Source: Pseudomonadota bacterium (GTDB lineage Bacteria; Pseudomonadota; Gammaproteobacteria; QQUJ01). From it: a stretch of DNA of 64,000 bases. A program made the position numbers and the translations under genes. The stretch is taken from the NCBI GenBank assembly GCA_008501635.1, contig QQUJ01000010.1, forward strand, positions 372,001-436,000. Reading direction: 5' to 3'. A model generated the notes under the pieces. It made no database searches, was not told where the DNA came from, and saw only the letters and a program-made list of their open reading frames with translations. Positions 5,347-23,326 of the stretch are shown here, one piece after another. How positions within the stretch are numbered: the stretch's first letter is position 1; the number at the start of each line of letters is the position of its first letter.

Positions 5347-5370
5347 TTAGATAAGATACCCCTTATCTAA
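5347..5370. promoter_or_regulatory. 24-bp perfect palindrome upstream of tkt, candidate LysR/CbbR operator
   Basis: TTAGATAAG-N6-CTTATCTAA is a perfect 9-bp inverted repeat 141 bp before the tkt start. Its core GATAAG-N6-CTTATC (5350-5367) has the same spacing as GATAAG-N6-TTTATC at 22368-22385, just before the CbbR-like regulator gene. LysR regulators bind such dyads and autoregulate, and CbbR commonly controls Calvin-cycle genes, so a CbbR site is a reasonable inference. The protein-site link has not been shown. Confidence 0.55.
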
Positions 5371-5510
5371 TATTGCCCACCCATAATAATTCAGGGACAA
5401 TGGCTCCCCCTTAGCACGGGGCGGGGGTTTGCCGTGTTTGTGGCTCTATCGATCACCTTCCGAATCCGCCCTTTAGTGTCAACCACTTAGAGAATTTTAG
5501 GAGAGACGCC

Positions 5511-7508
5511 ATGCCCTCCCGCCGTGAACTTGCCAACGCCATTCGCGCCCTCAGCATGGATGCCGTCCAGAAGGCCAAATCGGGCCATCCGGGCGCCCCC
5601 ATGGGCATGGCCGATATCGCCGAAGTGCTGTGGAACGACTTCCTCAAGCACAATCCGGTCAACCCCGAATGGGCCGATCGCGACCGTTTCGTGCTCTCCA
5701 ACGGCCACGGCTCGATGCTGATCTACTCGTTGTTGCACCTGAGCGGCTACGACTTGAGCATCGAGGACCTGAAAAACTTCCGTCAGCTGCACTCCAAGAC
5801 GCCGGGTCACCCGGAGTACGGCTATACGCCGGGTGTGGAGACCACGACCGGCCCCCTCGGGCAGGGCCTCACCAACGCAGTTGGCATGGCGATCGCTGAA
5901 AAGGTGTTGGCGGGCACGTTCAACCGTGATGGACACTCTATCGTCGATCACTACACCTATACCTTTGTCGGCGACGGCTGCCTGATGGAGGGTATTTCGC
6001 ACGAGGCCTGCTCACTCGCGGGCACGCTGGGTCTCGGCAAGCTGATCGCGTTCTACGACGACAACGGGATCTCGATCGACGGTCATGTCGAGGGTTGGTT
6101 CACCGACGACACGGCGAAGCGCTTCGAGGCCTACGGCTGGCATGTGGTGCGCGACGTCGACGGGCATGACTCCGAGGCAATCGCCAAGGCGATCCGCGAG
6201 GCCCGTTCGGTCAACGACAAACCCACACTGATCTGCTGCAAGACTGTGATCGGCTACGGTGCGCCCAATCTGTGCGGCAGCCATGACTGTCACGGCGCGC
6301 CGCTGGGCGATGACGAAATCAAGGCCACACGCGAGAACCTGGGCTGGAATCACGAACCGTTTGTCATCCCGCAGGAGATCCAGGCCGCCTGGAGCAAGCG
6401 CGCCAAGGGCGCCGAGTTGGAAGCGGCGTGGTCCGGGAAATTCGCCGCCTACCGCAAGGCCCATCCGGAGCTGGCCGCCGAGTTCGAGCGTCGTGTGATC
6501 AAAGGCGAGCTGCCCAAGGATTTCGCCACCCAGGCGGCCGCGTACGTCGCGGCCTGTGCCGAGAAGGGCGAGACGGTCGCTTCGCGCAAGGCGAGCCAGA
6601 ATGCTATCAATGCCTACGGGCCGCTGCTTCCCGAGCTGCTCGGCGGCTCGGCCGATCTGGCGGGCTCGAACCTGACTTTGTGGAAGGGCTCGAAAGCGCT
6701 CTCCAGTACCGTATCGGACGGCAACTACATCAACTACGGCGTGCGCGAGTTCGGCATGTCGGCGATCATGAACGGCATCGCGCTGCACGGCGGTTTCGTG
6801 CCTTACGGCGGCACGTTTCTGATGTTCATGGAGTATGCGCGCAACGCCGTGCGCATGGCCGCCCTGATGAAGATCCAGTCGATCTTTGTCTACACCCACG
6901 ACTCCATCGGGCTCGGCGAGGATGGCCCTACGCATCAACCGGTCGAGCAGATCGCCTCGCTGCGTCTGATTCCCAACATGTCGGTGTGGCGACCCTGCGA
7001 TACCGTCGAGTCCGCGGTCGCCTGGCAGTGCGCGGTCGAGCGCCGTGACGGGCCGACCAGCCTGATCTTCTCGCGCCAGAATCTGCCGCATCAGCCGCGC
7101 AGCGCGGCGCAGATCGATGCCATCAAGCGCGGTGGTTACGTGCTGGCGGAGGCTGATGGGGGTAAACCTGACGCCGTGATTATCGCCACCGGCTCCGAGG
7201 TCGGTCTCGCCATGGAGGTGCGCCAGCTGCTGGCCGCCAAGGGTAAGCGGGTGCGCGTGGTGTCGATGCCCTCCACCGATGCCTTCGACGCCCAGGACGC
7301 TGCCTACCGCGATTCGGTGCTGCCCAAGGGCATCCGGTGTGTCGCGATTGAGGCGGGTGTCACCGCGGGATGGTACAAGTACGTGGGGGGCGACGGTCGG
7401 GTGATTGGCGTCGATCGCTTCGGTGAATCGGCGCCCGCGGGTCAGCTTTTCGACTATTTCGGCTTCACGCCGGTAAAGGTTGCCGAGATTGTGCAAGAAA
7501 TTCTGTAA
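5511..7508 (+). CDS. tkt: Transketolase
   Basis: Thiamine-diphosphate enzyme that moves two-carbon units in the pentose phosphate and Calvin cycles. The protein is 665 aa, the normal full length. Motifs include [18 protein letters not shown] at the N-terminus, the ThDP-binding [13 protein letters not shown] segment, and [16 protein letters not shown] in the pyrimidine domain. The ATG at 5511 has an AGGAGA site. It heads the tkt-gap-pgk-pykA-fba block, an order often seen in autotrophic gammaproteobacteria. A palindromic operator-like site lies upstream at 5347. Confidence 0.97.
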
Positions 7509-7583
7509 AATCACGGCCCCAGTGGCGCGAACTCGGCGGTTTTCGACATGAGTGCCGCTACATCCACGCGCCTCAAGCGGTGA

Positions 7584-8615
<1,032 letters not shown>

Positions 8616-8633
8616 CTGATCCGCAGCGCTTTC

Positions 8634-8667
8634 CTGCATCCCCACTGCGTGCGCAGTGGGGATGCAG
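8634..8667. other. Perfect 16-bp stem hairpin between gap and pgk
   Basis: CTGCATCCCCACTGCG and CGCAGTGGGGATGCAG are exact reverse complements separated by only TG. No T tract follows, so it is not a canonical intrinsic terminator. In a gap-pgk transcript it could protect the gap mRNA 3' end or set unequal expression of the two genes. Confidence 0.8.
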
Positions 8668-8727
8668 CCCTTGGTGCGGCAGACCGCTGATGATCCTGAA
8701 CAGCATTCATTGAAGAGAAATACCGAC

Positions 8728-9909
8728 ATGTCCGTTATCCAGCTGACCGATCTCGATCTCAAGGGCAAGCGCGTTCTGATCCGCGCCGATCTCAATGTTC
8801 CCGTCAAGGACGGAAAGGTCACCTCCGATGCACGCATCAAGGCCTCGGTGCCCACTATCGAGCACTGTGTGAAGGCAGGGGCCCGCTGCGTGATGGTGAT
8901 GTCGCACCTCGGCCGCCCGGAAGAGGGCGTGTACGACGAGGAGGCTTCGCTGCAGCCGGTCGCAAAACATCTGTCCGCGCTTATTGGACAACCGGTGACC
9001 CTGGTAAAGGACTATCTTGATCAGCAGCCGACGTTGGCGGATGGCCAGGTGGCCGTGCTTGAGAATGTGCGTTTCAACACCGGCGAAAAGAAGAATCTCG
9101 ACGACACCGCGCGCAGGTATGCACAACTGTGCGACGTGTTCGTCATGGATGCCTTCGGCACCGCCCACCGTGCCCAGGCTTCGACCCACGGGGTGGCGAA
9201 GTTCGCGCCGGTCGCCTGCGCCGGATTGCTGTTGAGCGCTGAACTGGTTGCACTCGACAAGGCGTTGGCCAATCCCAGGCGCCCCATGGTGGCGATCGTC
9301 GGCGGTTCCAAGGTGTCGACCAAGCTCACCGTGCTGGAATCGCTCGCCGAAAAGGTCGACCAGCTGGTGGTCGGCGGCGGCATCGCCAATACCTTTCTGG
9401 CGGCGGACGGCAAGCAGATCGGCAAGTCGCTGGCCGAGCTGGATCTCATCCCGACCGCAAAGAGTCTGATGGCCAAGATGCAGCAGCGCGGCGCGACCAT
9501 ACCCATTGCCGTCGATGTCGTGGTCGGCAAGAAATTCGACGCCGACGAGCCGGCCGTCGTCAAAGATGCCGCGCAGGTGGCGGAGGATGACATGATTTTT
9601 GATATTGGCCCGCAGAGCGCACAGCAGCTGGCGGACATCATCTTGCAAGCAGGCACCGTGGTGTGGAACGGTCCGGTTGGTGTGTTCGAGTTCGATCAGT
9701 TCGGCACCGGTACCGAAACCATCGCCAGGGCCATCGCCGCAAGCAACGCCTTCTCGATCGCCGGGGGCGGCGATACTCTGGCGGCGGTCGACAAGTACGG
9801 TATCGCCGACCAGATCTCCTACATCTCGACGGGCGGCGGCGCCTTCCTTGAGTTCCTGGAAGGCAAAAAGCTGCCGGCGGTCGCCATCCTCGAGGAGCGG
9901 GCACAATAA
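8728..9909 (+). CDS. pgk: Phosphoglycerate kinase
   Basis: Transfers the acyl phosphate of 1,3-bisphosphoglycerate to ADP, or the reverse in the Calvin cycle. The protein is 393 aa from the ATG at 8728 ([20 protein letters not shown]). Motifs are [24 protein letters not shown] and [11 protein letters not shown], with the nucleotide-binding GGGDTLAAV near the C-terminus. The start is 25 codons inside the longest frame, since the upstream part overlaps the intergenic hairpin. The spacing to pykA is short, consistent with an operon. Confidence 0.97.
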
Positions 9910-9944
9910 GCGCCAACTCCAACACGACTAGGGATTCCAGCAGA

Positions 9945-11387
9945 ATGCTCCGACGCACCAAGATCGTCGCGACGCTGGGTCCCGCCACCGACGATCCTGC
10001 CGTGCTGGATGCGATGATCAAGGCGGGCCTCGATGTTGCGCGCATCAACTTTTCTCACGGGTCGCCGGACGATCACCGGCGTCGTGTCGAGCTGGTGCGT
10101 CGACGTGCCGCCGCGGCGGGTCGCGCCATCGGCGTGCTGATGGATCTGCAGGGCCCGAAGATTCGCATCGAACGGTTTGCCGATGGGGCGATAGAGCTGG
10201 TGGACGGTGCGCTGTTCGCACTCGATACCACATTGGCCGCGGATGCCGGAGACACGGCGCAGGTGGGTGTCGCCTACAAGGAACTGCCCGCCGACGTGGT
10301 GCCGGGCGATACGCTGCTGCTCGACGACGGCGCCATCATGCTGACGGTGGTCGATGTCACCGCGACGCGTATCAAGACCCGCGTCGCAGTGGGCGGCAAG
10401 CTCTCCAACAACAAGGGCATCAATCGTCAGGGCGGCGGATTGTCGGCAGCCGCGCTGACCGACAAGGACCGCGAGGACATTCGCATCGCAGCCGAACTGT
10501 CCGCCGATTATCTGGCCCTCTCTTTTCCGCGCGATGCGGCCGATGTGGAAATGGCGCGCGTGTTGATGGAACAGGCGGGCGGCGAATCACGCATTATTGC
10601 CAAGATTGAACGCACCGAGGCGGTTCAGGATGCCGAGGCCATTATTGCCGCGGCCGACGCCATCATGGTGGCGCGCGGCGATCTCGGTGTGGAACTGGGA
10701 GACGCCGAGGTGCCTGGCGTACAGAAACGCCTGATTCGCATGGCGCGCCAGCGCGATCGCGTGGTGATCACCGCGACACAGATGCTGCAGTCGATGGTCG
10801 ACAGCCCCATACCCACGCGGGCCGAGGTCTCCGATGTCTCCAATGCGGTGCTGGACGGCACCGATGCCGTGATGCTTTCGGCTGAAACCGCGACCGGCAA
10901 ATTCCCGGTCAAGGCGATCGCGGCGATGGACCGCGTCTGCCGCAGCGCGGAGCGGCAGCGCGAGGCGATGAGCTCCAATCATCGCATGGATGACTCGTTC
11001 CATCGTGTCGATGAGGCCGTGGCCATGGCCGCCATGTACGTCGCCAACCATCTGCCGGTGCGGGCAATCGCCGCGATGACCGAATCGGGCGATACGCCGC
11101 TGTGGATGTCGCGCATCAGCTCCGGAATTCCGATCTATGCGATGACACCCCACGAGTCGACGCAGCGCCGGGTCACGCTGTATCGCGGTGTCTATCCCGT
11201 CCCCTGCGCCACGCCCGCGGATCATACGACGGCCAATCGTCTCGCCATCGACGAGCTGAAAAAGCGCGGCGCGGTTGAAGACGGTGACATGGTCATCATC
11301 ACCAAGGGCGATCTGATGGGACTGCATGGCGGCACCAACGCCATCAAGGTCGTGCGTGTCGGCGAATTGGTCCCGATAGAGGATTAG
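9945..11387 (+). CDS. pykA: Pyruvate kinase, PykA type
   Basis: Converts phosphoenolpyruvate and ADP to pyruvate and ATP. The protein is 480 aa, the same length as E. coli PykA, and closely similar in memory-based comparison. Motifs are TKIVATLGPATDDP, ARINFSHGSPDDH, DLQGPKIRIE, and the catalytic region around KIERTEAV and MVARGDLGVE. ATATQML/STTATGKF-like segments are represented by ITATQMLQSM and SAETATGKFP. It lies between pgk and fba on the same strand. Confidence 0.96.
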   Translation: MLRRTKIVATLGPATDDPAVLDAMIKAGLDVARINFSHGSPDDHRRRVELVRRRAAAAGRAIGVLMDLQGPKIRIERFADGAIELVDGALFALDTTLAADAGDTAQVGVAYKELPADVVPGDTLLLDDGAIMLTVVDVTATRIKTRVAVGGKLSNNKGINRQGGGLSAAALTDKDREDIRIAAELSADYLALSFPRDAADVEMARVLMEQAGGESRIIAKIERTEAVQDAEAIIAAADAIMVARGDLGVELGDAEVPGVQKRLIRMARQRDRVVITATQMLQSMVDSPIPTRAEVSDVSNAVLDGTDAVMLSAETATGKFPVKAIAAMDRVCRSAERQREAMSSNHRMDDSFHRVDEAVAMAAMYVANHLPVRAIAAMTESGDTPLWMSRISSGIPIYAMTPHESTQRRVTLYRGVYPVPCATPADHTTANRLAIDELKKRGAVEDGDMVIITKGDLMGLHGGTNAIKVVRVGELVPIED

Positions 11388-11447
11388 AGAGCGTTCAGAT
11401 TTTAGAACGGCATTTTTCAATGCCAGCAACTTTTAAGGAGTAAACCC

Positions 11448-12512
11448 ATGGCACTAATCAGCCTGCGACAGATGCTCGATCACGCCGCCGAACATGGCTA
11501 CGGCGTACCGGCTTTCAATGTGAACAACCTGGAACAGATGCGCGCCATCATGGAGGCGGCCGCCGAGACCGATAGCCCGGTGATCGTGCAGGCCTCGGCC
11601 GGCGCCCGCAAGTACGCGGGTGCACCCTTTCTGCGTCATCTCATTCTGGCCGCCATCGAGGAGTGGCCGCACATCCCGGTCTGCATGCATCAGGATCACG
11701 GCACCTCGCCAGCCGTCTGCCTGCGTTCGATCCAGCTCGGGTTTTCATCGGTGATGATGGATGGTTCGCTGGGTGAGGACGGCAAGACGCCGACCAGCTA
11801 CGACTACAACGTCGATGTGACGCGCCGCGTGGTGGAGATGTCGCATGCCGGCGGCGTCTCGGTGGAAGGCGAGTTGGGTTGCCTCGGTTCGCTCGAGACC
11901 GGTCAGGCCGGCGAAGAGGACGGTATCGGCGCGGTGGGCACGCTCGATCATTCGCAGTTGCTGACCGACCCCGAAGAGGCAGCCGATTTCGTCAAGAGGA
12001 CCGGTGTGGATGCACTGGCGATTGCCATCGGCACCAGCCACGGCGCCTACAAGTTCACCCGTCCGCCGACCGGTGACATCCTCGCTATTCAGCGCGTCAA
12101 GGAGATCCATGCCCGCATCCCCAACACCCACCTGGTGATGCACGGCTCCTCATCGGTGCCGCAGGACTGGCTGAAGATGATCAACGACTATGGCGGTGAC
12201 ATGGGCCAGACCTATGGCGTGCCGGTCGAGGAGATCGTCGAGGGAATCAAACACGGCGTACGCAAAGTCAATATCGACACCGATCTGCGCATGGCTTCCA
12301 CCGGTGCGGTGCGCAAATTCCTCGCCGAGCATCGCAAGGAGTTCGATCCGCGCAAATTCCTCGATGCCGCCACCAAGGGCATGAAGGCGGTCTGCAAGGC
12401 GCGTTACGAGGCTTTTGGAACCGCCGGCAATGCCTCGAAGATGAGCGCACTGAGTCTCGACCAGATGACCGCGCGTTATCAATCGGGCGAACTCGATCCC
12501 AAGGTAACCTGA
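11448..12512 (+). CDS. fba: Fructose-bisphosphate aldolase, class II (Calvin-type)
   Basis: Zinc-dependent aldolase that joins dihydroxyacetone phosphate to glyceraldehyde-3-phosphate or erythrose-4-phosphate. The protein is 354 aa. Motifs are [16 protein letters not shown] with the zinc His and catalytic Asp, [33 protein letters not shown] and [10 protein letters not shown]. The length and sequence match the Calvin-cycle subtype (TIGR01521-like) rather than the E. coli FbaA subtype. An AAGGAG site precedes the ATG. It is the last gene of the block and is followed by an intrinsic terminator at 12532. Confidence 0.96.
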
Positions 12513-21179: not shown

Positions 21180-22076
21180 CTATTCGCCGGTGAGCCGATG
21201 CAGCGCTTCCTGGTATTTCTCCGCGGTTTTGGCGGCGATCTCGTCGGGGAGCTCGGGTCCTGGGGGTGTTTTGTCCCAGTCCAGGGTCTCCAGATAGTCG
21301 CGCACAAACTGTTTATCGAAGCTCGGCGGGCTGCATCCGGGTTCGTAGGAGTCTGCCGGCCAGAAGCGTGAGGAGTCGGGTGTCAGCACTTCGTCGATCA
21401 GCACCAGCCGATCGTCGGCGTCCAAACCGAACTCGAACTTGGTGTCGGCGATGATGATGCCGCGCTCCAGCGCGTATGCGGCTGCCTCCTTGTAGATGGC
21501 GATGCTGACGTCGCGTACCTGATTCGCCAGGCCTTCACCCAGCAGGTCCACCGCCTTTTCGAAGCTGATGTTCTCGTCGTGATCGCCCACCTCCGCCTTG
21601 GTGGAGGGAGTGAAGATCGGTTCGGGAAGCCGATCGGCCTGACGCAGGCCGGCCGGCAACTGGATACCGCATACCGTGCCTTGTTTTTGATACTCCTTCC
21701 AGCCGGAGCCGACAATATAACCGCGCACAATCGCTTCAATGGGCAACGGTTTGAGCCTGCGCACGACTATGGCGCGACCTTCGACGGTATTGCGCTCGGC
21801 GGGGTCGGGCAGGACCTGCGCCAGCGGAATGGCGGTCAGGTGATTGGGAATCAGGTGACCGGTGCGGGCGAACCAGAAATTGGAAAGCGACGTCAATATG
21901 CGCCCTTTGCCCGGGATCCCCGTGGGCAGTACGACATCGAATGCGGAGAGGCGATCGGTGGTGACGATCAGCATGTGTTCGTCGTCGATGGCGTAGATGT
22001 CGCGCACCTTGCCGCGGGCGATCGGGGTCAGCGTCGTCAGCAGGGATTCGAATAGGACCTTGGGTGTCTCGCTCAT
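21180..22076 (-). CDS. purC: Phosphoribosylaminoimidazole-succinocarboxamide synthase (SAICAR synthase)
   Basis: Joins aspartate to CAIR in de novo purine synthesis. The protein is 298 aa from the ATG at 22076 ([18 protein letters not shown]). It contains [52 protein letters not shown] and [15 protein letters not shown], classic PurC segments of the longer (about 300 aa) type. A separate promoter is plausible, since a terminator lies just upstream at 22135-22159 in the same direction and TAAAAT occurs near 22105. Confidence 0.96.
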
Positions 22077-22134
22077 GGGATTTATCGTCGCCGGGGAAAA
22101 CACGCATTTTAGCGGGATTGCCGGTAATGGTGCC

Positions 22135-22159
22135 AAAAAAAGAGGCCCTGGCGGGCCTC
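22135..22159 (-). terminator. Intrinsic terminator upstream of purC (minus strand)
   Basis: Read on the minus strand: GAGGCCC (22159-22153), loop GCCA, GGGCCTC (22148-22142), then seven T (plus-strand A 22141-22135). It would stop transcription entering from the region beneath cbbR before purC. No annotated gene precedes it, which points to a short non-coding transcript or an attenuated leader. Confidence 0.88.
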
Positions 22160-22318
22160 CAATACCAGCTGCGGAGAGAGGGTGTGCCGTTCCACCGCCG
22201 CCGTATGACCAATGTCTGTCGGCGCTCCCAATGACGGGTTGAATCGACACATCGTCCCCAGGCAATGGCCCCCGGATCTGAAGGCTGGGAGCGGGCTGCC
22301 ACTGTCTGAAGGGTATAA
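22135..22318 (-). ncRNA. Candidate small RNA or purC leader ending at an intrinsic terminator
   Basis: About 180 nt between a TATATT/TTATA-like minus-strand promoter element near 22318-22330 and the terminator at 22135-22159, with no convincing ORF. Internal pairing is strong: CGCTCCCA and TGGGAGCG form an 8-bp stem, with further short stems (GCCG/CGGC, GGTG/CACC). It diverges from the CbbR-like gene, and the shared palindrome at 22368 lies between. It does not match the 6S, 4.5S or tmRNA sequences I know. A purC attenuator is the main alternative. The 5' end is a guess. Confidence 0.35.
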
Positions 22319-22367
22319 ATATAGGTGGCGTCAGTCATATAGAAAATTAAATTCTTTTGATTTGATG

Positions 22368-22385
22368 GATAAGTTAAACTTTATC
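22368..22385. promoter_or_regulatory. GATAAG-N6-TTTATC operator-like palindrome before the cbbR-like gene
   Basis: This 18-bp dyad matches the core of the tkt-upstream palindrome at 5350-5367 in sequence and spacing. It lies 29 bp before the LysR gene start and on the other side faces the candidate small RNA. This is the usual place for LysR autoregulation. The assignment is an inference. Confidence 0.5.
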
Positions 22386-22414: not shown

Positions 22415-23326
22415 ATGCATGTGACTCTGCGCCAGATGCGCGTGTTCGAAGCGGTGGCGCGCCACCTCAGCTATACCCGCGCCGCCGAGGAGCTCTACCT
22501 CACTCAACCCGCTGTCTCGATGCAGATCAAGCAGCTGGAGGAGAACGTCGGTCTGCCGCTGTTCGAGCAGATCGGCAAACGCCTGTTCCTCACCGATGCC
22601 GGGCAGGAGGTGCTTGGCTGCAGCCGCGGGATCTCCCGCCAGCTCAAGGAAACCGAGGAGATGATCGAGGACATGAAAGGCGTGCGCCAGGGACGTCTGC
22701 AGGTGGCAGTGGCCAGCACGGCCGGCTATTTTGCCTCGCGCCTGCTGTCGGCGTTTGCGCGTGAGCACGAGGGCATCACCATCAGTCTCGATATCACCAA
22801 CCGTGAGCACCTGCTGCGCCAGGTGATGGACAACGAGACCGACATGGCCATCATGGGCAAGCCGCCCGAGGAACTCGACCTGGAAGCCGAGTCGTTCATG
22901 GACAATCCGCTGGTGGTGATAGCCGCCCCGGATCATCCGCTGGCGGACAAGAAGCGCATTGCGCTGAAACGGTTGCAGGACGAGGTGTTCGTGGTGCGCG
23001 AGCGGGGATCGGGCACCCGCAGCGCCATGGAGCGGTTCTTTCGCGAGCGCGACATTACCATCCAGACCGGCATGGAGATGACCAGCAACGAGGCCATCAA
23101 GCAATCGGTAATGGCCGGTATGGGGCTGGGCCTGGTGTCGGCCCACACGCTGGAGCTGGAGCTGGAGGCAGGGCGGTTGGCGGTGCTCAATGTGACCGGC
23201 TTCCCGATCATGCGGCACTGGTATCTGGTGCACCGTAAGGGCAAGCGACTCTCACCGGTCGCCCGGGTGTTCCATGACTATGTCCTTGCACACGCCGGCG
23301 AGGTGTGGCAGATGCCGCAGATCTGA
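22415..23326 (+). CDS. LysR-family regulator, CbbR-like
   Basis: A 303-aa LysR regulator. The N-terminal winged helix reads MHVTLRQMRVFEAVARHLSY, TRAAEELYLTQPAVSMQIKQ and GLPLFEQIGKRLFLTDAG, which closely resembles CbbR activators of Calvin-cycle operons. The C-terminal co-inducer domain is complete (ISLDITNREHLLRQ, MGLGLVSAHTLELEL). CbbR members respond to NADPH or phosphorylated sugars. No RuBisCO gene lies in the window, but tkt, gap, pgk and fba do, and tkt shares a palindrome with this gene's own promoter region. Confidence 0.85.
   Translation: MHVTLRQMRVFEAVARHLSYTRAAEELYLTQPAVSMQIKQLEENVGLPLFEQIGKRLFLTDAGQEVLGCSRGISRQLKETEEMIEDMKGVRQGRLQVAVASTAGYFASRLLSAFAREHEGITISLDITNREHLLRQVMDNETDMAIMGKPPEELDLEAESFMDNPLVVIAAPDHPLADKKRIALKRLQDEVFVVRERGSGTRSAMERFFRERDITIQTGMEMTSNEAIKQSVMAGMGLGLVSAHTLELELEAGRLAVLNVTGFPIMRHWYLVHRKGKRLSPVARVFHDYVLAHAGEVWQMPQI

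Follow-up and report, generated by a model that had tools for sequence, protein, structure and literature searches.

The window analysed here, a stretch of 64,000 nucleotides, carries a forward-strand block of genes for the Calvin cycle and lower glycolysis (5511-12512). The block opens with tkt (cbbT; 5511-7508), encoding a transketolase (TIGR00232, 1015 bits), and continues with gap (7617-8615), pgk (8656-9909), pyk (9945-11387) and fba (11448-12512), each recognised by an NCBIfam match. Further along the same strand lies a gene for a LysR-type regulator (22415-23326), with purC (21180-22265, minus strand) adjoining it divergently. A preliminary description had noted a dyad of the form GATAAG-N6-(C/T)TTATC before both the Calvin-type block and the LysR gene, and both copies are present. 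The first, GATAAGATACCCCTTATC (GATAAG-ATACCC-CTTATC; 5350-5367), lies about 140 bp upstream of the tkt start codon. The second, GATAAGTTAAACTTTATC (GATAAG-TTAAAC-TTTATC; 22368-22385), lies 30 bp before the regulator gene, with one mismatch between its arms, GATAAG and TTTATC.

The tkt dyad had also been described as a perfect 24-bp palindrome at 5347-5370, which is incorrect. Perfect 9-bp arms, TTAGATAAG and CTTATCTAA, flank a 6-bp centre (ATACCC) that is not self-complementary. A possible tkt promoter (TTGCCC-N17-GACAAT, 5373-5401, plus strand) might sit directly downstream, although it is weak, agreeing at 8 of 12 consensus bases and falling below the scan threshold. Both dyads contain TAA-N8-TTA, and so fit the published consensus for the regulator CbbR, TNA-N7/8-TNA (PMC2942843).

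Genome-wide searching combined pattern and profile searches. Scanning the whole genome (3,929,709 bases) for GATAAG-N6-YTTATC, as the preliminary description had proposed, returned exactly these two places, both intergenic and both before genes related to the Calvin-Benson-Bassham (CBB) cycle. About 0.23 sites per genome would be expected from base composition (61% GC). The reversed control pattern had no match in the whole genome, and dinucleotide shuffles of the window gave none for the strict pattern. The pattern is not portable: across 56 genomes of the same class it matched about as often as its reversed control, and none of the matching loci encodes a homologue of tkt, cbbR, RuBisCO or prk.

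The regulator gene and its proposed control element

The product of the gene at 22415-23326 matches the helix-turn-helix and substrate-binding domains of LysR-type proteins (PF00126 and PF03466). Its best family match is NF045990, a CbbR model, at 300 bits against a cut-off of 450; the model name, TransRegCbbRRhodb, suggests CbbR proteins of Rhodobacter type as its basis. In named genomes of gamma- and betaproteobacteria, the 80 best homologues share 58-71% identity with the protein, and the next-best LysR match within the genome itself reaches only 35%. Judged above all by its neighbourhood, the gene is a CbbR orthologue, as its earlier likening to CbbR had anticipated, because a form I or form II RuBisCO large-subunit gene stands divergently upstream of its counterpart in 63 of these 80 relatives. 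In several of the other 17, the region is cut by contig ends.

The intergenic regions upstream of the cbbR orthologues share a conserved element, within which conservation is highest at the dyad. ATAA-N8-TTAT occurs in 64 of the 80 regions against a shuffle mean of 1.5, and the stricter ATAAG-N6-CTTAT in 41 of 80 against 0.04. A second ATAA box and the -10 of a divergent promoter stand at constant distances from the dyad. Indeed, the spacing ATAA-N28-ATAA-N8-TTA is found upstream of 51/80 orthologues (0.04 in shuffles), and the aligned consensus reads ACTATA ... CATAATTAAAACTCAATnTTTTTGATTGTTATnATAAGnTAAnnCTTATG. Read towards RuBisCO, TATAGT would be the -10, with the ATAA box near -35 and the dyad as the recognition site distal to both. 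Such a layout is usual for LysR-type regulators, and by the register the dyad would be centred near -65.

The same architecture is present here. A 77-bp profile (R1), built from 51 relatives with this genome left out, matches the purC/cbbR intergenic region on the plus strand at 22317-22384 (profile positions 6-73, E 2.6e-6). This extended element comprises the predicted divergent -10, the ATAA activation box and the recognition dyad. By the register of the profile, the -10 of the divergent promoter would be TATATT (22318-22323, minus strand), which would place the dyad centre near -65.

The RuBisCO promoter and other candidate sites

Searched against the whole genome at E values up to 10, profile R1 returned only one further match (C17:301454-301525, E 0.039). 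This lies in the promoter of the form I RuBisCO cluster cbbLS-cbbQ-cbbO, on a contig other than that of the window. The dyad there is CATAAG-TAAAAA-CAAATG, which the strict pattern misses because one arm is degenerate. Candidate half-sites for recognition and for activation thus stand in a set spacing to the promoter before cbbL as well as between cbbR and purC; the tkt site has neither this extended register nor a match to the profile. The cbbR and cbbL sites are almost certainly CbbR operators, as predicted from their sequence.

The profile also finds RuBisCO promoters in other genomes. In the closest relative, the RuBisCO gene (cbbL) carries a separate copy of the element. Of eight regions retrieved around weaker profile matches in relatives' genomes, six have RuBisCO genes beside the match, including operons that do not adjoin cbbR. 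Another has only a CbbR-like LysR gene, and the last, in a Ferrigenium genome, has none of the genes tested. The match in this Ferrigenium genome (G085:C7:39628-39697) is strong (E 3.6e-7), with no homologue of RuBisCO, cbbR, the tkt block or prk within 2 kb, and is possibly a further CbbR target.

Other loci in the genome deserve mention. Two more genes resemble the RuBisCO large subunit with weak family scores, one on contig C10 (152428-153249, 138 bits) and one on C19 (117890-118387, 59 bits). They possibly encode RuBisCO-like proteins, and no CbbR profile match lies near either. About 300 bp before prk (C10:210122-210745) there is a weak TNA-type, CbbR-like site, AATTAGCTTTAATTTATT, whose score was reached by none of 100 shuffles.

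Conservation is sparser on the tkt side, where few relatives keep the dyad. Among the tkt regions of 26 relatives, ATAA-N7/8-TTAT occurs in seven, more than any other of the 16 AT-only dyad words compared, none of which exceeds three. These copies have a spacer of N7 between ATAA and TTAT and represent about five independent lineages. A matrix of the N6 dyad was not enriched in the relatives' tkt promoters. A 20-bp model of the core dyad proved too short for any find in the whole genome, and a core-dyad matrix ranks a few unrelated genome sites above the tkt site. In several gammaproteobacteria, a TGGGnnAAT element is conserved some 210-260 bp before tkt (six loci), together with a long GC-rich leader; this is perhaps a conserved promoter or a leader RNA.

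A predicted CbbR regulon and its alternatives

CbbR is a long-known LysR-type switch for the CO2-fixation genes of the Calvin cycle. We propose, with a probability of roughly 0.8, that both dyads are operators of the CbbR encoded at 22415-23326. The proposed LysR-type site is bipartite: CbbR, answering to some effector, would bind the dyad (TNA-N8-TNA) as its recognition half. Between purC and cbbR and at the RuBisCO promoter (C17:301454-301525), the activation half would be the second ATAA box, 32 bp nearer the divergent or downstream promoter, so that the recognition dyad would be centred near -65. CbbR would autoregulate its own gene and activate cbbLSQO. Through the dyad at 5347-5370, which is likely to be a CbbR operator, it would most probably also control tkt-gap-pgk-pyk-fba.

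The preliminary description had envisaged a small regulon defined by a single operator sequence. The regulon itself gains support from the two sites in the genome, the CbbR orthologue, the conserved dyad and the third site at RuBisCO. The strict sequence does not define it: one arm of the RuBisCO dyad is degenerate, and the core dyad has no diagnostic value by itself. This is a CbbR regulon of a known kind, to which the present work adds the site at the RuBisCO promoter and an extended element conserved in relatives. Our general understanding of CbbR is unchanged. What the analysis provides is the names of the genes likeliest to be under CbbR control in an autotrophic gammaproteobacterium with scattered cbbR, RuBisCO and tkt operons, and a 77-bp profile that locates RuBisCO promoters in related genomes even away from cbbR.

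A different regulator might act at tkt. On this account, CbbR would bind only the dyad beside cbbR, and the tkt palindrome would serve another LysR protein or a dimeric repressor, the likeness arising by convergence on an A/T-rich palindrome. The missing extended register would fit, as would perfect 9-bp arms more symmetric than those of typical CbbR sites and the presence of at least 13 other LysR-like matches in the genome. However, no third place in the genome has the GATAAG/YTTATC hexamers at this spacing, relatives repeatedly show ATAA dyads upstream of tkt, and the genes downstream belong to the Calvin cycle. Further, EMSA established that in Acidithiobacillus ferrooxidans the promoter of the equivalent operon, cbb3 (tkt, gap, pgk), is bound by CbbR in vitro (PMC2942843). 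We therefore regard a second regulator as unlikely.

Chance resemblance between two non-functional dyads is far less probable still. The loosened dyad, ATAA-N7/8-TTAT, is indeed common and unspecific, with 37 sites in the genome against 22 for its reversed control; the sites inspected adjoin genes for a FadL-like porin, a methyltransferase and a cytochrome, and we rejected the loose pattern as noise. ATAAG-N5/6-CTTAT also occurs inside coaE (as ATAAG-N5-CTTAT), the tkt site being its only intergenic occurrence. Set against this are the excess of strict sites over expectation, their placement before CBB genes, and the deep conservation in relatives of the dyad at cbbR. A role as hairpins or terminators within leader transcripts, rather than as protein sites, is scarcely credible for the dyads: they are inverted repeats, and the tkt copy lies 140 bp ahead of the start codon, but the arms are A/T-rich, conservation tracks the promoter register rather than a transcript, and Rfam has no match at either dyad. 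Elsewhere in the window, at 711-788 on the minus strand, Rfam does recognise an SAH riboswitch (RF01057, 54 bits).

The preferred reading, CbbR control of both loci, places this genome close to characterised systems. The LysR-type CbbR gene, the TNA-N8-TNA dyad, the geometry of the divergent promoter and the RuBisCO promoter as a predicted target are shared with the CbbR operators of autotrophic proteobacteria. As in the cbb1-cbb4 regulon of A. ferrooxidans (PMC2942843), there is a separate tkt/gap/pgk operon with a predicted CbbR site, and the tkt-gap-pgk order is identical to that of cbb3. The two differ in gene content, trpEG adjoining tkt there and not here, and in the nature of the evidence, which is EMSA for A. 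ferrooxidans and sequence-based prediction for our site.

The cbbR-cbbL regions of autotrophic proteobacteria differ from the arrangement here, in which the divergent neighbour of cbbR is purC, and the RuBisCO genes, with a separate copy of the element, are found on a different contig. The conserved divergent promoter, which faces RuBisCO in relatives, here faces purC. Five relatives, including the closest, likewise have purC directly and divergently adjoining cbbR, and there it separates cbbR from the RuBisCO gene. This suggests that purine synthesis and the cbb control region are repeatedly linked. A hairpin resembling an intrinsic terminator, GGAGGCCCGCCAGGGCCTC followed by T6 (22160-22141, minus strand, pointing towards purC), lies between purC and the putative CbbR-controlled divergent promoter at about 22311. 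We speculate, with considerable doubt, that this promoter yields a short RNA of about 180 nt under CO2-fixation control, or an attenuated purC transcript through which purine synthesis would be tied to CbbR.
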